Positions 37,118 through 49,624 of a stretch of 64,000 nt of DNA are shown piece by piece. A program made the translations under genes and the position numbers. The DNA is from Chitinophaga sp. 180180018-3 (GTDB taxonomy: Bacteria > Bacteroidota > Bacteroidia > Chitinophagales > Chitinophagaceae), in the NCBI RefSeq assembly GCF_037893185.1, contig NZ_CP140772.1, positions 7,494,001 to 7,558,000 on the forward strand. The letters are read 5' to 3'. The notes under the pieces were generated by a model that was given only the letters and a program-made list of their open reading frames with translations, had not been told where the DNA came from and searched no databases. Each line of letters begins with the position of its first letter. The stretch's first letter is position 1.

Positions 37118-38476
37118 TTAGATAGCGTTGCTAAATAGTTGTGAATGTGGTACTTGTCGCCATAGCCGGGCGTCAAATGCCATACAAATATTCCGGATAA
37201 AAGGTTTGCCTTTCTCAGTTACTTCCACCTTTTGAGGAAGCACCCGAACCAGTTCATCCTTCTCCAGTTCCTGCAGTCGTTGTAACCCGTCGATGATGGC
37301 GTCGCATTGTGTGTCTGCTTTTTTCCAGGTGGTTTCAAAGTTGCACATCAGCTGGTGTATATGCTTTCTCAGCAGCAGATCTTCTTCGGTAAGAATATGC
37401 CCTCTGACGATAGGAAACTGACCTTTATTCACCAGTTCCTGGTAAGCGTTCACTTGTTTTTCATTCTGTACATATGCATACCAGTTGTCGCCGATAGAAG
37501 ATGCTCCAAGTCCGATTAACAGGGAGGTGTGTGAAACTGTATAGCCCATGAAATTGCGGTGTAATCTGCCCTCCCGGAATGCTTTATACAAAGCTTCGCC
37601 GGGCAGTGCAAAATGATCCATTCCTATCTCTGTATAACCATTACTATCAAACAACAGTTTACCGAGTTCATACAGTTGCCTCTTTTCTTCATCCCGGGGA
37701 AGGTCTGCTTCCGTATAACGACGCTGGCCGGTACCCTTGATCCAGGGAACGTGTGCATAACTGTAAAAGGAGATCCTGTCGGGCAACAACCGGATAACTT
37801 TATCGATGGTATGCTGCATACTTTCCGTTGTCTGTAATGGCAGCCCGTATATCAGGTCGAAGTTGATGGAGGTATAGCCGATCTTTCTCGCATTCTCTAC
37901 TACGGAGGCTACCATTTGGAACGGCTGGAGACGATTGATGATTTCCTGCACTTTTTTATCGAAATCCTGTATGCCTAAACTGATCCGTCGGAAACCGAGA
38001 TCGTATAACGTTTGCAGATGTTCCGGAGTAGTATTGCCCGGATGTCCTTCAAAGCTCAGAGATGCGTCAGGCAGTAGTGTTGCGTGCTCGTATATGCCAC
38101 TCAGCAGGCGGTTCAGATTTGTGGCACTGAAGAAAGTAGGCGTGCCTCCTCCGAGGTGAATTTCCCGTATACGGGGCCGCTCGCCAAAGGCTTGAAGATA
38201 CAGTTGCCATTCTTTCAGTAAGGCTTCTATATAAGGTTCCTCTACCCCATGGTTAACGGTTATGTACTTGTTACAACCGCAGTAGGTACACATGCTTTCG
38301 CAGAAGGGAAGATGTATATAGATGCTGATGCCATCCCTGCCATTTGATTCCTGAAAAGACTTTTTCAGCAATGCTTCCCAATGGCCGGCATCAAAGGAAT
38401 TTTCATCCCAGTAGGGAACAGTTGGGTAACTGGTATATCGGGGGGCGGCAACGTTATATTTACTGATGAGGCTCAT
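37118..38476 (-). CDS. hemN: Oxygen-independent coproporphyrinogen III oxidase
   Basis: This 452-residue cytoplasmic radical-SAM enzyme has the cluster cysteines Cys59, Cys63 and Cys66 in CESMCTYCGC, preceded by SIYIHLPF. HLGGGTPTFF and GHPGNTTPEHL are further radical-SAM/HemN motifs, and the C-terminal HemN domain has the FALPGEALYKA stretch. It converts coproporphyrinogen III to protoporphyrinogen IX without oxygen, so it would supply haem for the cbb3 oxidase when oxygen is low. It is the last gene of the cco operon, six bases after the SafE-like gene. Confidence 0.93.
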   Translation of the reverse strand: MSLISKYNVAAPRYTSYPTVPYWDENSFDAGHWEALLKKSFQESNGRDGISIYIHLPFCESMCTYCGCNKYITVNHGVEEPYIEALLKEWQLYLQAFGERPRIREIHLGGGTPTFFSATNLNRLLSGIYEHATLLPDASLSFEGHPGNTTPEHLQTLYDLGFRRISLGIQDFDKKVQEIINRLQPFQMVASVVENARKIGYTSINFDLIYGLPLQTTESMQHTIDKVIRLLPDRISFYSYAHVPWIKGTGQRRYTEADLPRDEEKRQLYELGKLLFDSNGYTEIGMDHFALPGEALYKAFREGRLHRNFMGYTVSHTSLLIGLGASSIGDNWYAYVQNEKQVNAYQELVNKGQFPIVRGHILTEEDLLLRKHIHQLMCNFETTWKKADTQCDAIIDGLQRLQELEKDELVRVLPQKVEVTEKGKPFIRNICMAFDARLWRQVPHSQLFSNAI

Positions 38477-39224: not shown

Positions 39225-39662
39225 TCAGTAAATATTCAATGACTGTTCCTGGTAAAAAGGCCGGTTGTTCATGGTCCACTGTAACTTTACCTTGTACAGT
39301 CCTTTGATGAATAACTGTTTGTTTATCAATTGCTGCCCCTCGGAATCAGGTTGTAGCGGGAGACGTATATCCTTGTTGGAATCGGATGGCCGGTAAAAGG
39401 TGAGCTGCCCCTTCACTGCTTTATCTTTCATTTCCGCCGGAAAGATCAGTTTCACCCCTTCAGCAGGTTGTTCAATGATGACCGGCGTTGAGAGCAGGGC
39501 TGCATTTTGTCTGCCATCTACCACCTGTTGGTATTTTAGTTCTTCGCCATAGTAGTCAGGTGTTACCATGTCAATCCGGGTACGCATGCTATGCGTAACC
39601 AGTGTGAGGATTCCTGCCGCAAATACCACAAAAACAAGTATGATCTTATGTCCCCAGTTCAT
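39225..39662 (-). CDS. ccoH: FixH/CcoH-family assembly protein
   Basis: This 145-residue protein has one N-terminal membrane helix (about 6-25) and a periplasmic beta domain (residues 30-145). TPDYYGEELKYQQVVDGRQNA is the FixH-type segment. FixH/CcoH proteins are needed for maturation or stability of cbb3 oxidase. It follows CcoG by 35 bases and precedes the SafE-like gene. Confidence 0.85.
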   Translation of the reverse strand: MNWGHKIILVFVVFAAGILTLVTHSMRTRIDMVTPDYYGEELKYQQVVDGRQNAALLSTPVIIEQPAEGVKLIFPAEMKDKAVKGQLTFYRPSDSNKDIRLPLQPDSEGQQLINKQLFIKGLYKVKLQWTMNNRPFYQEQSLNIY

Positions 39663-39697: not shown

Positions 39698-41083
39698 CTA
39701 CTGTATTGGCCCGAGAAAGGTGGTACGTAAACGGGTTATTTTCCTGTTGTGTTCATACAAACCTATGTACAGGGTTGATTTACGTTGATGTAATGCTGTT
39801 TTCGGCAATACAACGAAGAAGGTGCCCTCCCCCTGTCCTTCTGCCCTGACATGTATAACCGGTTGCCCCACCATGGTGATGTTACCGGCTTCATCTTCCA
39901 GTTTTAGCTCAAGAGGGATATCCGCATTGGTTTTGTTGATCAGTTTGATGCGATACAGGTTGCTGACGCTGTCTGTTCCACGCTCCTGGTAGAGCATACC
40001 GGCTGTACGCATGATGGTACCGCTTACCGGCTTCCGGCTTGTGAGCATAAAGGTAATAGCAGCCAGCAGCAGCGCCAGTACAGACGCATATACTTTCATG
40101 CGGGCGGAGAACCGGATTTTTTTCCCTTCGGCAATGCCGTTTTCGGAGGCATAGCGGATCAGTCCTTTCGGCCGGCCGGTTTGCTCCATCATAAAATCGC
40201 ATGCGTCGATACATGCGGTACAGTTGACACATTCCAGCTGCGTGCCATTCCGGATGTCGATCCCGGTTGGACAAACTTTCACGCATTGGGCACAATCGAT
40301 ACAATCGCCCAACTCCGGCGCCGCATTTTTCCGGAATTTTCCGCGAGGCTCACCTCTTTTGTAGTCATAAGCTACCAGCAGAGAGTTACGGTCCAGCAAC
40401 ACGCCCTGTAGTCTTCCGTATGGGCAAACCGTGGTGCAGATTTGTTCACGCATAAACGCAAATACGCCATAGAACACACCGGAAAAAATCAGGATAGCAC
40501 TGAAGCCGCCGGCATGTTCGGAAAGAGGTTCCGTAATGATCCTGCCTAATGCTTTGGCTCCGATGATATAAGACAGGAATATGTTTGCGATGAGAAAAGA
40601 AAGAGCAAAGAACGCCAGATGTTTGCCTGTTTTCCGGATGATTTTATTGGTATTCCAGGGCGACTGCTGCAGGACTTTTTGAGCGGCAGCATCTCCTTCT
40701 ATCCAATATTCCAGGCGCCGGAAAAGCATCTCCATAAAAATTGTCTGTGGGCACATCCACCCACAAAACAGTCGTCCGAAGGCCATTGTAAACAGCACTA
40801 CAAAAAGGATAAAGGCCACCATTGCAAGGCCGAAAACAAAGAAATCCTGGGGCCAGAAAATGGCGCCAAACAGGATGAATTTGCCTTCCACGACATTCAG
40901 CATAAATAAAGGCCTGCCATTTATGGAAATAAACGGCAGGCTAAAAAAAACACTAAAATAGAGCAGGCTTACCGCAGTACGTATATTATACCATTGGCCT
41001 TTCGGCTGTTTGGCGTATATCCACTTACGTTTACCCTGCGCGTCAACTGTGGCTAATGTATCTCTGAATGTGTTACTGGTCAT
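39698..41083 (-). CDS. ccoG: CcoG/FixG-type ferredoxin-like membrane protein
   Basis: This 461-residue inner-membrane protein has about five helices and two 4Fe-4S binding sites: CIDCAQCVKVCPTGID and CVNCTACIDACD, both near residues 256-295. An RLFCGWMCPQTIFMEM segment lies at about 107-122, and the C-terminal domain is a periplasmic beta sandwich. CcoG/RdxA is a cupric reductase that supports copper insertion into cbb3 oxidase. It follows CcoP by three bases. Confidence 0.92.
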   Translation of the reverse strand: MTSNTFRDTLATVDAQGKRKWIYAKQPKGQWYNIRTAVSLLYFSVFFSLPFISINGRPLFMLNVVEGKFILFGAIFWPQDFFVFGLAMVAFILFVVLFTMAFGRLFCGWMCPQTIFMEMLFRRLEYWIEGDAAAQKVLQQSPWNTNKIIRKTGKHLAFFALSFLIANIFLSYIIGAKALGRIITEPLSEHAGGFSAILIFSGVFYGVFAFMREQICTTVCPYGRLQGVLLDRNSLLVAYDYKRGEPRGKFRKNAAPELGDCIDCAQCVKVCPTGIDIRNGTQLECVNCTACIDACDFMMEQTGRPKGLIRYASENGIAEGKKIRFSARMKVYASVLALLLAAITFMLTSRKPVSGTIMRTAGMLYQERGTDSVSNLYRIKLINKTNADIPLELKLEDEAGNITMVGQPVIHVRAEGQGEGTFFVVLPKTALHQRKSTLYIGLYEHNRKITRLRTTFLGPIQ

Positions 41084-41086
41084 TGT

Positions 41087-42148
41087 TTATTCTTTTTGAC
41101 CCTGCGGGTCTTTCGGATTCGGAGGATTGCTGCCATGGATCGACTTGATGAAGCTGGCCAGCTGAGCAAGCTGTTTAGGAGAAAAATCATCCTGCCACGA
41201 TTTCATCCCTTTATCCGCGACGCCATACTTGATGGTTTTGAAAACGTCATTCACCTTGCCACCATGCAGCCAGTAATCGTCTGTGAGGTTTGGTCCTACC
41301 ACGCCCTGGCCCTGCGGCCCGTGGCAGGGAGCGCAATTGGAAACGAACATTTTTTGTCCGGCTGTGATATCAGCGGGATCGGTGAGCAGCTTTACGTTAT
41401 TCTCATCGATATTGTTGGCTGCTTTCTTCAGATATTCCTCTTTGGCAACAGCTGCTTTTTTCTCTGCTGCCGCCAGTTCTTCGATCTGGTTAGGCGCGGA
41501 ATGAGTTATTTCTGTTCGCCAGAAGTATACCACTCCGAAGCAGATGGTAAACGCGAAGCCCCATTTCCACCAGGGAGGAGTTGGATTATTCAATTCCCGG
41601 ATGCCGTCGAAGTCGTGGCCCATGTCTTCTTCCGCTTCTGCCGCAGCATCCAGTGTTTTGGTGTTGTTTAGTTTTTCCAGCCAGGAAACGCTGGGTTTCC
41701 CGGGTACTACTGCTTTCGCAGGCCTGTGTTTACGTTTGATACCAACCAGGTACCGCAACAGGAACAGGAGGCAGATGACCACCAGGAGCTCCAGCAGGAT
41801 AACGGATATCAATACGTAGAAAGACGTCTGTGAAAGATTGGTGAAATAAGGGCTGGCTGCCGGGGCAGTTGTTTCAGCGAAGGCGCTGCTGCTGAATAGC
41901 GACAACGCTATGATTCCGATTGCGATCAGTGTTTTGCCGGCATCATTTTTCATCTTTTCCCTGAAAATATCCATGGCGCCCAGTACGGCATTTCCCAGGA
42001 TAGTAATGGCCAGTAATAATCCTATTGCCACTACCAGCAGCAGGAGAGCTACAGGATCTGACAGCTCAGAGGGGGCATTACCAGCAGCAAATACCGGGGC
42101 GCTGCAGAGGATGCCAGCGGTGAGCAATTGTATAAAGTGTTTATTCAT
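41087..42148 (-). CDS. ccoP: cbb3 oxidase subunit CcoP with a single haem site
   Basis: This 353-residue protein has an N-terminal part with several hydrophobic segments (about 3-22, 32-55, 72-90, 108-132, 195-212) and a C-terminal cytochrome c domain with one haem c site, Cys272-Cys275-His276 in NCAPCHG, and GVVGPNLTDDYW. Proteobacterial CcoP has two haems; only one CxxCH is visible here. It passes electrons to the CcoNO core. It lies between the small CcoQ gene and CcoG. Confidence 0.9.
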   Translation of the reverse strand: MNKHFIQLLTAGILCSAPVFAAGNAPSELSDPVALLLLVVAIGLLLAITILGNAVLGAMDIFREKMKNDAGKTLIAIGIIALSLFSSSAFAETTAPAASPYFTNLSQTSFYVLISVILLELLVVICLLFLLRYLVGIKRKHRPAKAVVPGKPSVSWLEKLNNTKTLDAAAEAEEDMGHDFDGIRELNNPTPPWWKWGFAFTICFGVVYFWRTEITHSAPNQIEELAAAEKKAAVAKEEYLKKAANNIDENNVKLLTDPADITAGQKMFVSNCAPCHGPQGQGVVGPNLTDDYWLHGGKVNDVFKTIKYGVADKGMKSWQDDFSPKQLAQLASFIKSIHGSNPPNPKDPQGQKE

Positions 42149-42348: not shown

Positions 42349-44493
42349 TTATAAGTCCTCTTTATCTGCTACCTGTGCCGGTTTGGGGGCTGATTTAATG
42401 TCTTTCCCCATCCTTTGCAGGTAAGCTATTAATGCTATGATTTCGCGGTCGGCTTTGATCGGAAGTTTGTCTTTCTGCAGATTGGCTGCAATTTCCTGAG
42501 CCTGTTTATCAAGGTCGGCGTTGGCCTGCAATTCATAGCCTGTTGCATAGGGCACACCCAGCTTTCTCATGACATTGATCATCGCCGGTGTTTTGCTTTT
42601 ATCTACCCGTTCTTCAAATAGCCAGGGATAGGAAGGCATGATAGATCCGGGCGACATGGAGGTTGGATCCAGCATGTGGTTAAAGTGCCAGGAATCAGGG
42701 TATTTGCCTCCTATACGTGCCAGATCGGGACCGGTACGTTTAGAACCCCACTGGAACGGATGATCATATACAAATTCACCGGCTTTGGAATATTCTCCGT
42801 AACGGGCAACTTCATCGCGGAACGGACGGATCATCTGGGAGTGACAGTTATAACAGCCTTCTCTCAGGTATATATCACGGCCGTGCAATTCCAGCGGCGT
42901 GTATGGTTTTACACTGCTGATAGTAGGGATATTACTCCGGATAAGGAATGTAGGCATCATTTCGAGAAGCCCTCCGATGGCCACTACTATCAGGCTGAAT
43001 ACAACCAGTGGTATGGGGCGGCGTTCTATCCAGTTATGCCAGTGGGCTTTACCATGAGTAGTGATCACTTTCGGCAATGGAGCTGCTTCGGCTGCTTCGT
43101 TGGCAACAAAAGAGCCACGGCGTATGGTTTTGGTAAGATTCACTACCATCAGTATAAGTCCGCTGATGTATAACATACCTCCTACTGCACGCAGGGCGTA
43201 CATCGGTACAATGGTGGTAACTGTTTCCAGGAACTGGTATTTTAACTGTCCTTCTTCAGTAAACTGTTTCCACATCATACTTTGGGTAAAGGCGGCCCAG
43301 TAAAGCGGGATCACATAGAAGATGATACCCAGAGTGCCGATCCAGAAGTGTGTGTTGGCCCATTTGCGGGAATACAGCTGTGTGCTGAAGATCCGGGGAA
43401 TGAGCCAGTAAAGGATACCGAATGTAAGGAACCCGTTCCAGCCGAGCGCGCCCACATGAACGTGTGCAATGGTCCAGTCGGTGTAGTGGCTGATAGCATT
43501 CACATTCTTCAATGACAACATCGGTCCTTCGAAAGTTGCCATACCATAACAGGTCAGTGCTACCACAAAGAACTTGAGGATAGCGTCTTCCCTTACCCGG
43601 TCCCAGGCTCCGCGGAGTGTCAGCAAACCATTGAGCATACCACCCCAGGAGGGTGCAATCAGCATTACACTAAAGGCGGTACCGAGTGTTTGAGCCCATT
43701 CGGGGAGCGCGGTATACAGCAGGTGATGCGGGCCGGCCCAGATATATATAAAGATCAGCGACCAGAAGTGGATGATAGACCACCGGTAGGAATAAACAGG
43801 TCTGTTTGCCGCCTTGGGCACGAAGAAATACATCAGCCCCAGGTAAGGTGTAGTCAGGAAAAATGCTACTGCATTGTGTCCGTACCACCACTGAACCAGG
43901 GCATCCTGTACACCCGCATACCAGCTGTAACTTTTGAACAGGGATAAAGGAAATTCGAAAGAGTTAACGATATGAAGCATGGCAATAGCCACCCAGGTAC
44001 CGATGTAGAACCAGATGGCCACATACAGGTGCGATTCACGCCGGCGAAGAATGGTACCCAGCATGTTGGCGCCGAAGACGAGCCATATGAGGGTGATCGC
44101 AATATCAAAAGGCCACTCCAGCTCGGCATATTCTTTTCCGGTAGTGTAACCGAGGAATAAAGTCAATGCGCCACCGGCAATGATAGCCTGCCAGCCCCAG
44201 AAATGGATTTTACTCAACAGATCACTGAACATGCGGGCTTTACACAGGCGCTGCAGGGAATAATAGACACCCATGAATATACCATTACCCACAAAGGCAA
44301 AAATAACAGCGTTGGTGTGCACGGGCCTGAGCCTGCCGAATGTAATGGGGGCAAAACCCATGTTAAGGCCTGGGATCACCAGTTCAAGCGCTGCCCATAA
44401 ACCGGCCAGCATGCCTATGAATCCCCAGAACATACAAGCGTAGGCAAACCATTTTACCGTACGGTTGTCGTAATAAAATTTTTCGAGTGACAT
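42349..44493 (-). CDS. ccoNO: cbb3 cytochrome c oxidase CcoN-CcoO fusion
   Basis: This 714-residue protein fuses the catalytic CcoN subunit (about 1-470, 12 helices, with HWWYGHNAVAF-type and VHVGALGWNG His-containing helices binding haem b, haem b3 and CuB) to the CcoO cytochrome (about 500-714). CcoO has one haem c site, Cys547-Cys550-His551 in EGCYNCHSQMIRPF. The fusion is common in Bacteroidota. The enzyme reduces oxygen at high affinity and pumps protons. It is preceded by ccoS and a cupin gene. Confidence 0.95.
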   Translation of the reverse strand: MSLEKFYYDNRTVKWFAYACMFWGFIGMLAGLWAALELVIPGLNMGFAPITFGRLRPVHTNAVIFAFVGNGIFMGVYYSLQRLCKARMFSDLLSKIHFWGWQAIIAGGALTLFLGYTTGKEYAELEWPFDIAITLIWLVFGANMLGTILRRRESHLYVAIWFYIGTWVAIAMLHIVNSFEFPLSLFKSYSWYAGVQDALVQWWYGHNAVAFFLTTPYLGLMYFFVPKAANRPVYSYRWSIIHFWSLIFIYIWAGPHHLLYTALPEWAQTLGTAFSVMLIAPSWGGMLNGLLTLRGAWDRVREDAILKFFVVALTCYGMATFEGPMLSLKNVNAISHYTDWTIAHVHVGALGWNGFLTFGILYWLIPRIFSTQLYSRKWANTHFWIGTLGIIFYVIPLYWAAFTQSMMWKQFTEEGQLKYQFLETVTTIVPMYALRAVGGMLYISGLILMVVNLTKTIRRGSFVANEAAEAAPLPKVITTHGKAHWHNWIERRPIPLVVFSLIVVAIGGLLEMMPTFLIRSNIPTISSVKPYTPLELHGRDIYLREGCYNCHSQMIRPFRDEVARYGEYSKAGEFVYDHPFQWGSKRTGPDLARIGGKYPDSWHFNHMLDPTSMSPGSIMPSYPWLFEERVDKSKTPAMINVMRKLGVPYATGYELQANADLDKQAQEIAANLQKDKLPIKADREIIALIAYLQRMGKDIKSAPKPAQVADKEDL

Positions 44494-44523: not shown

Positions 44524-44682
44524 TTATTCATTACCGTTAGTGAGATCATCGTCGAACAGGATCCGGTGTGCCGGAGAGAAATCATCATCAAATTGTCCGT
44601 TCTTTACTGACCAGATGAAAGCGGCGAGGAATCCCACTGCTACCAGCAGGCTGATTCCGAGTAAAATGACGATAACACTCAT
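44524..44682 (-). CDS. ccoS: CcoS-like oxidase maturation protein
   Basis: This 52-residue frame has one membrane helix (about 3-25) with the CcoS-type sequence SLLVAVGFLAAFIWSVKNGQFDDDF. CcoS is needed for cofactor insertion into CcoN. It lies 30 bases before ccoNO on the same strand and starts six bases after the cupin stop. Confidence 0.9.
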   Translation of the reverse strand: MSVIVILLGISLLVAVGFLAAFIWSVKNGQFDDDFSPAHRILFDDDLTNGNE

Positions 44683-44688
44683 GGCTTT

Positions 44689-44979
44689 TTATTTAATGAG
44701 AATAAAACGTGCTGTTTCCAATGCCTGCAATGCGTGTATTTCATTGGCTGCGAAAGAAAAAATATCTCCTGTTTCCAGTATGGTGATCTCTTCATTCAGC
44801 ATAAAGGCAATTTTCCCTTCCAATACCAGTATCATAGCATTTGCCGGAGAGGTATGAGGCGGGATTTGATGTCCCTGTTGCATGATCAGCAACGTAGCGT
44901 CAAATTTTTTTGTTTTCAGAATAGCACAGCTCTTCACTTTCTCATTTGCTGCTACCTGCATTACGTTCATTACTTTCAT
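44689..44979 (-). CDS. Cupin-domain protein, first gene of the cco operon
   Basis: The ATG at 44979 gives 96 residues, a single cupin barrel. Conserved cupin motif 1 reads QGHQIPPHTSPANAMILVLEGKIAF (seen in short pieces, PPHTSPANAM and VLEGKIAF), and motif 2 is DIFSFAANEIHAL. The metal ligands are reduced: one His in PPHTS and one in NEIHAL. It is the first gene after the FNR-type promoter, followed by ccoS. A regulatory or redox-sensing role is conceivable but not shown. Confidence 0.75.
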   Translation of the reverse strand: MKVMNVMQVAANEKVKSCAILKTKKFDATLLIMQQGHQIPPHTSPANAMILVLEGKIAFMLNEEITILETGDIFSFAANEIHALQALETARFILIK

Positions 44980-45037
44980 GGGTAGTTGTTGTGGTATAAT
45001 ACGATGCTGCACTCCCGGCATGCCTCACCCGCTGCGT

Positions 45038-45067
45038 GTAAGCAGCCTCTTTTCAGAGACTGCTTAC
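45038..45067 (-). other. Hairpin in the leader of the cco transcript
   Basis: GTAAGCAG (45038-45045) pairs perfectly with CTGCTTAC (45060-45067), with an inner CTCT/AGAG stem. It lies in the leader of about 150 bases between the FNR-type promoter and the cupin ATG. It could influence mRNA stability or attenuate transcription; there is no U-tract. Confidence 0.45.
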
Positions 45068-45132
45068 ATGCCCATTTCGTACGGGTTTAATTGAGGTTGC
45101 TTAGATTATACTGTGTATGTTCGTGTTATAGC

Positions 45133-45176
45133 AAAGTTAAAAACAGGTATACCCGGCAGCAATGATATTGCTCAAT
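45133..45176 (-). promoter_or_regulatory. FNR-type promoter of the cupin-cco operon
   Basis: On the minus strand TTGC (45163-45160), 19 bases, then TAACTTTG (45140-45133) match the Bacteroidota promoter pattern. Immediately upstream is TTGAG-CAAT-ATCAT (45176-45163), eight of ten matches to the FNR box TTGATnnnnATCAA. Its centre is 29.5 bases from the -7 box edge, about -43 from the start site, the position of a class II activator. It overlaps the ccoI stop codon. Confidence 0.7.
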
Positions 45177-47610
45177 CAGGAATATGATTTTTATCAGTCA
45201 TTTCCTGAATTCCCTTACTGTTAAGCTTTTTGCCGTACCATTCGCTGCACGCCCAGGTAATAATAATAATGCTGATAGAACTGGCAGGCATTAACACCGC
45301 CGCTACCAGGGGAGATAAAATACCCTGTACGGCGAAGTATAGCCCGGTGATATTGTACAGGACAGATAGTGTGAAGCTGAGCAGGATAATGCGTTTGCCG
45401 GCTTTGCATAAGCTGATGAAACGAGGTAGCATCGGCAGCTTCTCTGCAGCCAGGATGCCATCGCTGGCCGGTGTGAAGTTGTTACTGTCGTCTGTCAGGG
45501 AAATACCAATATCGCTTTGTTTTAACGCACCTGCGTCGTTCAGCCCGTCTCCTATCATCATCACTTTTTTCCCCTGTTGCTGAAGCGACAGGATATAGGC
45601 GAGTTTATCCGCCGGTTGCTGTTCGAATAATAAGGCAGTATCATTGCCCATCAGCTGCCGGAGCTGTAAGATCGTGTGGTTGTTATCGCCCGACAACACG
45701 GAGAGTGGGTAAGAGGCATTCAGTTCTTTCATCAGCGGCCGCAATCCGCTGCGGTAGCTGTTGCGGATGGTAAAGAGCCCCGCCAGCTTTTCATTGATGG
45801 AAACATATACCACACTTCCTGCCTGATCCTCTTTACGATGAGCGCCTGCAAATTCAGCATTGCCGAGCCTGATGAAAGACCCATCTACCCAACCACATAC
45901 TCCTTTTCCGGAAAAATCGCGGAAGTCATTCACCGGCAAACGTACATGCATGCCGCAATATTGTATGATGGCCTGGCTCAGCGGATGTGTCGACTGTGCC
46001 GCAAGGGATGCGATTTGTATCTCCTGCGCCACGGTGAGTTTGTTGCCATAGTAAACAACAGAACTACCGGTTTTATTGGTGAGCGTACCGGTTTTATCAA
46101 ATACGATGTGGGTGGCATTCGCCATACTTTCAATGGCGTCGGCATTCCGCAGATATAACTGATGCCGGCTGAGTATCCGGAGTATATGTCCGTTTGTAAA
46201 TGAAGAGGCAAGCAGCAGTGCGCAGGGACAGGCAATAATAAGAATAGCTGTTACGGCCGGCCAGATACGCACAGGATCATGGGTACTCCACCAAACGGAG
46301 GTTACTGTTGCGATGAATAACACAATCCAGGTAAAGTAGCGGCTCAGCAGGTGTATAAATGACTGCGTTTTGGGTGCCGTGTTCTTTAATTCTTCCCTGT
46401 TCCATAAACTCGTCAGGTAACTTTGCGCTACTTCTTTAATGGTGAGGATCTCAAGGTTGCCATCCAGCTGGCGTCCGCCCGCATAAACAATTTCTCCTAC
46501 CGCTTTTTGCACGGGTATTGATTCGCCGGTAACGAAACTATAATCGATCAGTGCATGCCCGCGTACAATGATGCCATCTGCCGGTACCAGTTCGTTGTTA
46601 TGAACCCGGATGGTGTCGCCGGTTTTAATTTCCGGCAGCGCGGTCGGAACTTCTGCATGGTCCCTGATAACGCTTACGGCTATAGGAAAATATGCGGTAT
46701 AGTCCCTGTCAAATGAAAGCCCCTGGTAGGTTTTGTCTTGCAAAATTCTTCCAACAAGCATAAAGAAAACGATCCCGGTCATAGAGTCGAAGTACCCTGC
46801 GTTACCCTGCAGTACTTCAGTAAGGCTGCGTATAAATGTCACGAATATCGCCAGTACAATCGGTACATCAATATTGAGGAATCCGTGTTTAAGCCCGCCC
46901 CAGGCAGATTTGTAAAATGCCTGTGCACTGAATAGCAATACCGGTAACGCCAGTACGAGATTCATATAGCGGAATAGCCGGTTGAAGTTTTCATCCAGTC
47001 CGGCCGCACCGGCGAAGTAATCCGGGAAGCTGAGCAACATGATGTTGCCGAAACAAAACCCTGCTACGCCCAGCTGGTAGATCAGCTTCCGGTTTGTTGC
47101 CGGCTTTTTATGCTGCAGATCCTGCAGGCTGATATGCGGTTCGTAACCTATGGCGGTGAGTGCTTCTGCTACTTTTCTCAGCGAGGTTTGCTGATTAGAA
47201 AAGATGATCAGGGCTTCTTTACGGCTAAAGTTAACGGTAACCCTGGTAACCCCGTTTTCCAGCTTATGGAGATTTTCCAGTAGCCACAAACAGGAGCTGC
47301 AATGGATTTGAGGGATATAGAAATTTACATGCGTTTGCGTGTCGTCCCGAAACGAGCAAAGTTGTTGCGCGATTTTATCGTCGTCCAGGAAAGCAAATTT
47401 ATCTTTCCGTACTACTACCCGCTGATTCAATCCAGGCTGGCGGTTCAGGTCATAGTATTCACACAGGTGATGCTGATTCAGTATCTCATATACCATTTTA
47501 CATCCCTGGCAACAGAATACTTTGTCCTGCAATGCAATGTCGTTATCCGTACAGTTCTCCCCGCAATGATAGCAGGTAAGATGTGTACTGGTATGTGAAG
47601 AAACGGCCAT
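45172..47610 (-). CDS. ccoI: CcoI/FixI-type copper-translocating P1B-ATPase
   Basis: This 812-residue protein has an N-terminal cysteine region (CCQGC at about 33-37, the extra domain of CcoI proteins), a heavy-metal-associated domain with CSSC (Cys104, Cys107), eight helices with the IACPCALL copper motif, phosphorylation motif FDKTGTLT, and GDGLNDAGAL in the ATP site. CcoI moves Cu(I) toward the CuB site of CcoN. It starts at the last base of the preceding hemerythrin-like gene (TGATG overlap), so the two are translated together. Confidence 0.94.
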   Translation of the reverse strand: MAVSSHTSTHLTCYHCGENCTDNDIALQDKVFCCQGCKMVYEILNQHHLCEYYDLNRQPGLNQRVVVRKDKFAFLDDDKIAQQLCSFRDDTQTHVNFYIPQIHCSSCLWLLENLHKLENGVTRVTVNFSRKEALIIFSNQQTSLRKVAEALTAIGYEPHISLQDLQHKKPATNRKLIYQLGVAGFCFGNIMLLSFPDYFAGAAGLDENFNRLFRYMNLVLALPVLLFSAQAFYKSAWGGLKHGFLNIDVPIVLAIFVTFIRSLTEVLQGNAGYFDSMTGIVFFMLVGRILQDKTYQGLSFDRDYTAYFPIAVSVIRDHAEVPTALPEIKTGDTIRVHNNELVPADGIIVRGHALIDYSFVTGESIPVQKAVGEIVYAGGRQLDGNLEILTIKEVAQSYLTSLWNREELKNTAPKTQSFIHLLSRYFTWIVLFIATVTSVWWSTHDPVRIWPAVTAILIIACPCALLLASSFTNGHILRILSRHQLYLRNADAIESMANATHIVFDKTGTLTNKTGSSVVYYGNKLTVAQEIQIASLAAQSTHPLSQAIIQYCGMHVRLPVNDFRDFSGKGVCGWVDGSFIRLGNAEFAGAHRKEDQAGSVVYVSINEKLAGLFTIRNSYRSGLRPLMKELNASYPLSVLSGDNNHTILQLRQLMGNDTALLFEQQPADKLAYILSLQQQGKKVMMIGDGLNDAGALKQSDIGISLTDDSNNFTPASDGILAAEKLPMLPRFISLCKAGKRIILLSFTLSVLYNITGLYFAVQGILSPLVAAVLMPASSISIIIITWACSEWYGKKLNSKGIQEMTDKNHIPD

Positions 47611-48158
47611 CAGTCTATAATTTGGTTATCAGTATCTTGTTGGGGAGCAACTGGTTGATGTCCCGGAACAGCCGTAGAATAAAGGATATTCTGCTCTACG
47701 TAGATCCATTGATGCAGCAATTGCTCTGTCAGAAATATATCGTTTATGCATAAACGATATGTGGCACTCCATTCCGGATGTAACTGGTAGTTCCCGGAAA
47801 CCTGGCGCAGTCGCTGAAGCAACAATGTTATTTTCTGAAAAGATTGTTGAATGCTTTCGTACACTACAGGCTGGATATTTTCACGCATTTTAAGTGCGGA
47901 TTGGTTGCGGATAACAGGAAACAACAACGTGCTTTCTTTACGGATAAGCTGGTTGATTTCGGCGTGCATCCTGGAAAACAATAGTTGCTGCAGGTCTGCT
48001 ACAGGGGGCGTGGTACCGTCGTCCTGCCGGTCGAGGTTAAAATATGCCATTACCTGCTCCGCCTGATGCTGGATCGGCCAATGAAATTTATTGGCGATAA
48101 CAAGACATAAATGTCCGGGCGTTAATTCGTGGAAATTAATAATCGAATAAGTGAGCAT
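47610..48158 (-). CDS. Hemerythrin-like protein (RIC/YtfE-related), coupled to ccoI
   Basis: This 182-residue soluble protein has a four-helix pattern with candidate metal residues: HWPIQHQ near residues 26-32, MHAEINQLIRKESTLLFPVI near 64-83, and HQWIYVEQNILY near the C-terminus. The FPxI and late HxxxE-type stretches are those of the RIC (ScdA/YtfE/DnrN) branch, which repairs or supplies iron after nitric oxide stress. Some usual His ligands are not obvious. It stands directly upstream of ccoI and shares its promoter with an FNR box, so it may act in oxidase maturation or NO protection. Confidence 0.6.
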   Translation of the reverse strand: MLTYSIINFHELTPGHLCLVIANKFHWPIQHQAEQVMAYFNLDRQDDGTTPPVADLQQLLFSRMHAEINQLIRKESTLLFPVIRNQSALKMRENIQPVVYESIQQSFQKITLLLQRLRQVSGNYQLHPEWSATYRLCINDIFLTEQLLHQWIYVEQNILYSTAVPGHQPVAPQQDTDNQIID

Positions 48159-48180: not shown

Positions 48181-48224
48181 CAAAAGTAGAGGCGGCGTCA
48201 GGGAGGCCCAATGACATGTATCAA
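48181..48224 (-). promoter_or_regulatory. FNR-type promoter of the hemerythrin-ccoI operon
   Basis: On the minus strand TTGG (48211-48208), 19 bases, then TACTTTTG (48188-48181) form a good promoter. The FNR-like box TTGAT-ACAT-GTCAT (48224-48211) matches the consensus at eight of ten bases. Its centre lies 29.5 bases from the -7 box edge, the same as at the cco promoter (45133-45176). Confidence 0.7.
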
Positions 48225-48254
48225 GGCATAATATGATATTTGTCAGGATTTGTA

Positions 48255-48965
48255 CTAGTCCTGCAGATTAGCAGTGCGGATAATTTCGGGCATGTCGAGC
48301 AGGCGTATTTTTTTGCCTTCCAGCTCAATCATACCATCTTTTTTGAATTCGGAAAGGAGGCGGATAGCGGATTCGGTAGCGGTACCGACAAGGTTGGCGA
48401 TTTCTTCCCGCGAGAGGCGAACACTGAGTGTTTGACCATCGGGCTCAACGCCATAAGTTTCCTTAATAAAGAGAAGGGTTTCGGCAAGGCGTTCCCGTAC
48501 CGGCTTTTGCGCAAGATGTGTGATCTTCAGCTCAGCTTTACGGAGTTCGCTTGATAAAATGCGCATCATCTCGAAAGAAAGGGATGCGTCTTTTTGCAAG
48601 ATATTGAGGAACAGGTCTTTAGGAATAAAACAAACGGAAGAATCTTCCAGTGCAATGGCCGTAGCCGTATACCTTTCATTGCTCAGGAGGGCTTTATATC
48701 CCATGATATCGCCGGCTTTGATGAGGCGTATAATCTGTTCACGTCCATCATCGCCACTATGTGCCAGCTTTATTTTACCATTATTCACACAATACACACC
48801 GAATGGATAGGCTCCTTCATGGAAAATCACCTGACCTTTCTTGTACACCGAGCATACTTTAGCATCTGCGATCTCTTCGAGATTGCATTGCTCAGCTTTG
48901 CAGAATATCGACATAAAGCGATCCTTGCAATGGACACAGGATGGATTGTTTAAAGGTATAGCCAT
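48255..48965 (-). CDS. Crp/Fnr-family transcriptional regulator with N-terminal cysteines
   Basis: The ATG at 48965 gives 236 residues: an N-terminal cysteine cluster Cys10, Cys13, Cys22 and Cys27, a cyclic-nucleotide-type sensor domain (about 35-150), and a winged helix (about 155-225). The recognition helix TESAIRLL keeps the Glu and Arg that read TTGA in FNR (ETISRLL), with Ile in place of Ser. The longer frame starts four codons earlier but overlaps the promoter box. The four cysteines could hold an oxygen-sensitive iron-sulfur cluster; this is inferred. It is next to the genes carrying FNR-like boxes. Confidence 0.85.
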   Translation of the reverse strand: MAIPLNNPSCVHCKDRFMSIFCKAEQCNLEEIADAKVCSVYKKGQVIFHEGAYPFGVYCVNNGKIKLAHSGDDGREQIIRLIKAGDIMGYKALLSNERYTATAIALEDSSVCFIPKDLFLNILQKDASLSFEMMRILSSELRKAELKITHLAQKPVRERLAETLLFIKETYGVEPDGQTLSVRLSREEIANLVGTATESAIRLLSEFKKDGMIELEGKKIRLLDMPEIIRTANLQD

Positions 48966-48974
48966 ATCAATTTG

Positions 48975-49006
48975 CAAAAGTACTAATTTACGGCTCCTTA
49001 ACCAAA
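48975..49006 (-). promoter_or_regulatory. Promoter of the Fnr-type regulator gene
   Basis: On the minus strand TTTG (49006-49003), 20 bases, then TACTTTTG (48982-48975) match TTTG-N19/20-TAnnTTTG closely. The box ends 9 bases before the ATG at 48965. No FNR-like box is seen upstream, so autoregulation by an FNR-type site is not indicated. Confidence 0.65.
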
Positions 49007-49018
49007 GTAAAACCTTTC

Positions 49019-49624
49019 GTGATATTTTATTATTATATTATTTATAAGCCATATGAAGTGTTGACCCGTTTTACACCGGAAGGGAATAAAGCCTGCCTGG
49101 CAGATTACTTTAAGGTGCCTTCTGATGTTTATCCTGTGGGGCGTCTGGATTATGATAGCGAAGGGTTACTGGTGCTTACCAACGACAAATACCTGAACCA
49201 GCAGTTGTTGCTGCCCAGGCATGCCCATGAGCGGGAGTATTGGGTACAGGTAGATGGGGCGGTGACACCGGAGGCCATACAGCAATTGCAGGCAGGAGTA
49301 GACATAAAAGTAGACGGGCAGCTTTACCGGACCCGCCGCTGTAAAGCGGAGATACTATCTGCCGAACCGGGGCTGCCACCTCGTAACCCACCTATCCGTT
49401 TCCGGAAGCATATTCCTGCACCGTGGATAAAAATGATATTGGAAGAAGGGAAAAACAGGCAGGTTCGGAGAATGACCGCTGCCGTAGGTTTTCCTACGTT
49501 GAGGCTTGTCCGTTACCGGATTGAAGCACTGACAGTAGCCAGCATGCAATCCGGTGAAATGCGGCAATTGAGCAGGGAGGAGATATACCGTCAGCTGAAG
49601 ATAAGCGGGAAACGCCAGGCCTGA
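49019..49624 (+). CDS. RluE/RluF-type 23S rRNA pseudouridine synthase
   Basis: This 201-residue cytoplasmic enzyme has the RsuA/RluB/E/F family motifs: YIIYKPYEVLTRFTPEG, catalytic Asp in YPVGRLDYDSEGLLVLTND (the Asp in RLDYDS, near residue 44), and EGKNRQVRRMTAAVGFPTLRLVR. The N-terminal S4 domain of RsuA is absent, as in RluE. The start is a GTG at 49019 (no upstream ATG fits). It modifies a uridine in rRNA, the exact position not being predictable. It is divergent from the Fnr-type regulator. Confidence 0.88.
   Translation: MIFYYYIIYKPYEVLTRFTPEGNKACLADYFKVPSDVYPVGRLDYDSEGLLVLTNDKYLNQQLLLPRHAHEREYWVQVDGAVTPEAIQQLQAGVDIKVDGQLYRTRRCKAEILSAEPGLPPRNPPIRFRKHIPAPWIKMILEEGKNRQVRRMTAAVGFPTLRLVRYRIEALTVASMQSGEMRQLSREEIYRQLKISGKRQA

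Follow-up and report, generated by a model that had tools for sequence, protein, structure and literature searches.

Among the closest known systems are the class II FNR promoters of Escherichia coli, with which the promoters reported here share respiratory targets and a palindrome of the Crp/Fnr type whose centre is predicted at -41.5 by the register used. Unlike those promoters, they use a TGA half-site without the outer T, a Bacteroidota -7 element and a second box at a fixed 22 bp, and they have no -33 element. The tandem-FNR promoters of E. coli (yfiD and the constructs of Barnard et al. 2003) also have two sites, one at the class II position; however, their natural upstream site lies at -93.5 (here -63.5), its effect is position-dependent and can be repressive, and the accessible part of the source does not describe the tandem sites as one rigid recurring module (PMC11264516). 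In rhizobia, the FixL/FixK kinase pathway and FnrN both act on fixNOQP (PMC7888657, accessible part), and here too a kinase pathway and an Fnr-type protein may both act on a cbb3 operon, but the receiver and the Crp-type DNA-binding part are fused and the promoter is a fixed box pair. According to the accessible portion of PMC9723704, cbb3 oxidase is induced by oxygen limitation in F. psychrophilum. Some Crp/Fnr homologues of Bacteroidota and Ignavibacteria have been treated as MalR, and the words 'tandem' and 'spacing' are absent from the main text of that source as far as it was accessible (PMC8510549). No published description of the composite module was found in a literature search that had most subscription papers outside its coverage.

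The window, the whole stretch of 64,000 nucleotides that was analysed, corresponds to positions 7494001-7558000 of a single-contig Chitinophaga genome of 8.13 Mb. On its minus strand the genes follow in the order fnr, a 182-aa RIC-like gene, ccoI, cupin, a CcoS-like ORF, ccoNO, ccoP, ccoG, ccoH, a DsbD_2 protein gene and hemN, and the nearest CcoNO relatives are those of a Flavihumibacter MAG, Paraflavitalea and Chitinophaga costaii.

48255..48977, minus strand: gene for an Fnr-type regulator, listed as 240 aa, with ATG 48965 as its likely start (Pfam cNMP_binding, HTH_Crp_2)
47610..48158, minus strand: RIC-like protein of 182 aa (iron-sulfur cluster repair family), encoded by the first gene of operon B (TIGR03652 52.7 bits, below the cut-off of 204.7)
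45172..47610, minus strand: ccoI/fixI-type metal-transporting P-type ATPase
45038..45067, minus strand: strong leader hairpin GTAAGCAGTCTCT-GAAA-AGAGGCTGCTTAC between promoter A and the first gene (leader z -3.65)
44689..44979, minus strand: cupin gene, whose ORF could begin at 45021
44524..44682, minus strand: 52-aa ccoS-like ORF, named by reading the sequence, without a profile
42349..44493, minus strand: ccoN-ccoO fusion, cbb3 oxidase (Pfam COX1, FixO)
41087..42148, minus strand: ccoP-type cytochrome c subunit (FixP_N, Cytochrome_CBB3)
39698..41083, minus strand: ccoG/fixG (FixG_C, Fer4_18)
39225..39662, minus strand: ccoH/fixH
37118..38476, minus strand: hemN, oxygen-independent coproporphyrinogen III oxidase (TIGR00538 444 bits, cut-off 325)

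An earlier note on this DNA had described one FNR-like box at class II spacing before each of two operons. The boxes and -7 elements of both operons have the sequences and positions that it gave, and the box centre lies 29.5 nt from the -7 edge in each. However, a better conserved partner box 22 bp upstream had been missed in each promoter, so that the observation is correct but covers half of the structure.

45162..45175, minus strand: promoter A proximal box, TTGAGCAATATCAT; predicted centre -41.5, predicted start 45127
45184..45197, minus strand: promoter A distal box, CTGATAAAAATCAT; predicted centre -63.5, within the 3' end of ccoI
45132..45139, minus strand: promoter A -7 element, TAACTTTG, exact TAnnTTTG
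48211..48224, minus strand: promoter B proximal box, TTGATACATGTCAT; predicted centre -41.5, predicted start 48176
48233..48246, minus strand: promoter B distal box, CTGACAAATATCAT; predicted centre -63.5
48181..48188, minus strand: promoter B -7 element, TACTTTTG, exact TAnnTTTG

In both promoters, 22 nt separate the proximal box from the -7 element, which matches the Bacteroidota sigma-A form TAnnTTTG exactly. Each composite pairs two TGA-N6-TCA cores at a spacing of 22 bp, and its -7 element follows 23 nt after the lower core. The box centres and start sites are predictions from the published Flavobacterium register, in which TAnnTTTG of F. psychrophilum sigma-A promoters occupies -12 to -5 (PMC9723704, accessible text). 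Because of the cupin gene upstream of the ccoS-like ORF, the -7 element of promoter A lies 639 nt from ccoN, a distance that for most of the other listed loci falls at about 20-35 or 180-300 nt. Since both the hairpin and the cupin gene precede ccoS-ccoNO, the role that promoter A has elsewhere in driving the oxidase genes may be absent here. The hairpin was rejected as a repeated element, since it occurs once in the genome even with up to 3 mismatches allowed; no T-run follows its stem, and it might act in attenuation or mark where the ccoI transcript ends.

The earlier note had judged the arrangement improbable by chance and proposed a genome scan for the box-to-promoter geometry. When the whole genome was scanned with TTGAN6TCA-N{8,38}-TAnnTTTG (31 gap lengths), 17 matches were found against 13 for the reversed-pattern control, and 4 of the 17 had the gap seen in the window, two of them being promoters A and B; taken alone, then, the pairing of one box with a -7 element is no more than moderately unusual. 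Among the additional matches at this gap, the one at 856105 belongs to a one-mismatch tandem, and that at 2418183 stands outside the tandem list and is probably a chance match. For the composite the argument from chance stands: with both gaps left free, the genome contains 2 exact copies, both in the window, and none of the reversed pattern.

The geometry is also rigid in relatives. In 80 cbb3 loci of the genome collection, picked by CcoNO similarity alone, the positions of boxes relative to TAnnTTTG peaked sharply at two gaps, 22 and 44 nt, and many promoters had both. A search of 60 genomes, as drawn from the family, allowed 21 x 21 = 441 gap pairs and gave 122 matches in 42 genomes, compared with 5 for the reversed-pattern control. 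The pair (23,10) accounted for 77 of the 122, in 35 genomes, followed by (24,10) with 10, (23,11) with 5 and (22,10) with 4; all others had at most 2, and no second peak at other helical phases appeared among the 441 pairs. For the cbb3 loci, the 80 of the collection were joined by 40 from the family, where a FixO match was present in 45 genomes; these 40 were fetched besides the window, while contig edges (G019, G059) and weak matches (G018, G030) removed four. With at least 250 nt upstream required, 118 of the 120 loci were counted (L029 and L080 excluded). The exact geometry, with at least 15 of 18 core bases, was found before ccoN in 88 of the 118, compared with a mean of 1.0 for 36 wrong geometries; these comprise 49 of 78 loci from the collection and 39 of 40 from the family sample, and 5 more loci reach 15 once one gap is moved by one base. 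A composite was found upstream of ccoI in 62 of 91 loci, and both there and before ccoN in 56 of 91, with 2 for three wrong geometries pooled. These counts in the genome itself, the family and the cbb3 loci rule out a chance match for the composite. The part of the earlier claim that concerned a class II-spaced Crp/Fnr-family box before the cbb3 genes is borne out, as the box is the same in both operons, beyond chance and kept in relatives.

The module has limits in its distribution. In 25 of the 118 loci, including those of Tenacibaculum and Carboxylicivirga, no composite was found before ccoN even with one gap shifted by one base. Two of these 25 (L035, L036) have an Fnr gene nearby, and in L036 a site scoring 15/18 lies upstream of ccoI. 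Scores before ccoN were 11-12 in the seven loci with an Ignavibacteria-group or Neomarinimicrobiota label. Across the phylum, a mismatch-free composite was present in 16 of 148 genomes, namely 14 of 37 in the same class and 2 of 111 outside it (control 0). In L042, a MAG contig with the label Calditrichota, the composite scores 17/18 upstream of ccoI and 11 before ccoN; this could reflect a wrong label, transfer, or a wider spread of the module.

The two boxes of the composite differ in how well their cores are conserved. Their half-site core is TGA-N6-TCA with a consensus of about nTGAYN4RTCAn, in which the outer base is free, and not the FNR consensus TTGATN4ATCAA that the earlier note had applied and that the proximal boxes of the window fit at 8 of 10 positions. 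Among the 88 promoters scoring at least 15, the distal core was perfect (6/6) in 87 and the proximal core in 50; the promoters were selected by a score to which these core bases themselves contribute, which inflates the absolute percentages but does not favour the contrast between distal and proximal boxes. When spacers of 15-23 were examined, TTG at spacer 19 above the -7 element was found in 0 of the 88, with about 2.0 expected. The composite promoters have no conserved TTTG-like -33 element about 19 nt above the -7 element; in the window, promoter A has TTGC at that place and promoter B matches differently. The TTGC that had been taken as a -33 element is indeed adjacent to the box of promoter A, with a 1-base overlap, as T 45162 is both the last base of the box and the first of TTGC; as a promoter element it finds no counterpart in these 88 promoters. 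It is conceivable that a single FNR box stands by an ordinary -33/-7 promoter with the upstream box there by chance, and the 8/10 fit of the proximal boxes agrees with this. We consider it highly improbable, since the distal box keeps the same offset and its near-perfect core in the 88 loci, TTG is missing at spacer 19, and the gap-pair counts of the family also contradict it.

Another explanation is that the distal box acts as a brake, as at yfiD of E. coli, its dimer turning the promoter down under full anaerobiosis so that the oxidase peaks at low rather than zero oxygen. The upstream FNR site of yfiD (-93.5) does down-regulate (PMC11264516, accessible part), and low oxygen is the condition in which a cbb3 oxidase is of most use. 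The brake is unlikely, because conservation is higher for the distal box, which also occurs at a variety of targets, and because upstream FNR dimers are reported to repress in E. coli from positions -85 to -95 (the same part of PMC11264516), away from the -63.5 predicted here.

The targets extend beyond the oxidase. With the geometry fixed and up to 3 mismatches allowed, the Chitinophaga genome gave 37 matches compared with 2 for the control, 18 of them with at most 2 mismatches. These targets include the cbb3 operons, a P-type ATPase, and Usp genes and small uncharacterised proteins around a receiver-Crp/PAS-kinase pair at 571-584 kb. At 3 mismatches they also take in an sdhC-like gene, named by reading its sequence, and the gene for cytochrome bd subunit I. 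In relatives, the 75 of the 77 exact family composites that lie outside this genome were fetched, and 63 yielded a downstream ORF by rule (12 gave none): 18 ccoNO, 2 ccoI, 7 Cytochrom_C, 4 Rrf2, 3 Pyridox_ox_2, 2 Usp and 2 tRNA_m1G_MT, with others occurring singly. One box pair can also face two divergent genes, as opposite-strand matches offset by 31 nt were found in G012, G019 and G021 in the family search, in G120 in the phylum search and, with mismatches allowed, at four places in the Chitinophaga genome. Related proteins of 124-133 aa (MKIYISEEA...) are encoded at L163:8260-8658, L166:5765-6166 and L168:6176-6550; the first two lie about 20 nt below a composite promoter, and the first has no Pfam or NCBIfam match. 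All of these properties, from sequences, rigid geometry and conservation to the many target genes, and likewise the regulator association and helix similarity given below, are seen directly in the sequence data.

The Fnr-type neighbour has the Crp/Fnr fold (PF00027 and PF13545 above cut-off) and scores 101 bits against the NCBIfam Fnr model NF008365, below its cut-off of 228. E. coli FNR has the cysteine set C20, C23, C29 and C122. In the neighbour, C17, C26 and C116 align to C20, C29 and C122, and R20 stands at the place of C23, so that the E. coli-type set is incomplete. Among 22 Fnr sequences of the cbb3 loci, the window included, C14, C17 and C116 were present in 22, C63 in 21 and C26 in 9; a different four-cysteine set is possible in this protein. 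The fnr gene has its own -7 element, TACTTTTG at 48982-48975, about 10 nt before ATG 48965, with TTTG 20 nt above, and its promoter looks ordinary, with a message predicted to be nearly leaderless. Control of fnr by the same composite module was excluded, as no box pair occurs in 48900-49100, where there is a single 5/6 core at 49062-49073.

Receiver-Crp fusions were counted together with Fnr in the 60 family genomes. Presence was assigned by hand from per-genome tables, for Fnr at a best E up to 1e-70 and for receiver-Crp by a full-length match with a best E up to 1e-90, at most 34 receiver-Crp candidates being scored per genome. By these measures, a close Fnr was present in 13 genomes and a full-length receiver-Crp in 47. 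The neighbour, which the earlier note had regarded as the reader, is the first candidate here but is unlikely to be the sole reader across the family, as 47 of the 60 genomes have no close orthologue; 39 of these have receiver-Crp, and composites that are exact or nearly so occur in 29 of the 39. With gaps of 22-24 and 9-11, all 8 genomes with both regulators had mismatch-free composites. So did 29 of the 39 in which receiver-Crp was the only one of the two, 2 of the 5 in which Fnr was, and 1 of the 8 without either. Genomes with at least one regulator thus had them in 39 of 52 cases, against 1 of 8 for the rest (Fisher p 0.0013). The lone composite-bearing genome with neither regulator, G012, is a 72%-complete assembly. 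By the tolerant score, all five Fnr-only genomes have 16-18/18 before ccoN, and the composite is present in 39 of the 40 family cbb3 loci that were fetched; L240 (score 12), the one without it, comes from G032, in which neither Fnr nor receiver-Crp was found.

The two regulators have similar recognition helices. Glu 202 and Arg 206 (numbered as in the Fnr-type protein of the window) were present in 22 and 21 of 22 Fnr sequences, and both in 35 of 35 receiver-Crp sequences; for this count, 37 were reduced to 35 by dropping L024 and L213 (235 aa), which are receiver matches only. The string GTATExxIR occurred in 15 of 22 and 21 of 35, respectively, and some receiver-Crp sequences diverge in the helix, for example GTASETVSR in Pedobacter. 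C14 and C17 were found in 0 of 37 receiver-Crp sequences. In the Chitinophaga genome, L163:4698-7336 and L169:1738-4332 are receiver-Crp genes (receiver, cNMP-binding, HTH_Crp_2), each adjoining a PAS histidine kinase gene, and one of the two sits in the Usp cluster rich in composite promoters. Two Crp-type genes without a receiver (L164:5356-6138 and L164:9642-10391, at 855-860 kb) each adjoin a one-mismatch composite and are a possible third kind of reader. Receiver-Crp driven by PAS histidine kinases might even be the main reader here, with Fnr secondary or serving other genes. The composite-bearing genomes with receiver-Crp and no close Fnr, as well as the clustering of composites around the pair at 571-584 kb, speak for this arrangement. 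We hold it to be the less likely one, because the five Fnr genomes without a full-length receiver-Crp match keep the composite before ccoN and the Fnr gene adjoins both promoters here.

Taken together, it is likely that the cbb3 operons are served by a composite promoter with a strong distal box and a weaker class II box, activated by a Crp/Fnr-family protein at low oxygen. A dimer would fill the distal box (about -63.5) first and help a second dimer onto the weak proximal box (about -41.5), which would contact RNA polymerase where sigma would otherwise read the -33 element, and transcription would rise at low oxygen. Binding, its order, activation rather than repression, the oxygen signal and the start sites we infer from the sequence features described. 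Lambda CI at OR1 and OR2 works in a comparable manner, the strong upstream operator helping to fill the weaker promoter-adjacent one; the protein and spacing are unrelated, and this is an analogy only. In the Chitinophaga genome the adjacent cysteine-bearing Fnr would be the first candidate reader, and receiver-Crp, whose helix is similar, may also recognise these boxes here and is probably their reader in genomes without Fnr. More tentatively, we propose one rigid, divergent-capable Bacteroidia module that is read by sensors of two types, Fnr with its cysteines and receiver-Crp driven by a kinase, and in which the box pair could serve as a cooperative low-oxygen switch.

The fixed composite would make the low-oxygen regulon of many Bacteroidota readable from sequence, most of which an E. 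coli-type TTGAT matrix would miss. In addition, cooperative class II activation at Bacteroidota promoters becomes directly testable. The sensors beside the oxidase genes vary between genomes and the promoter code stays constant, which provides a natural experiment. If the two-sensor reading is true, regulators may be exchanged or combined in evolution while the promoters remain unchanged.
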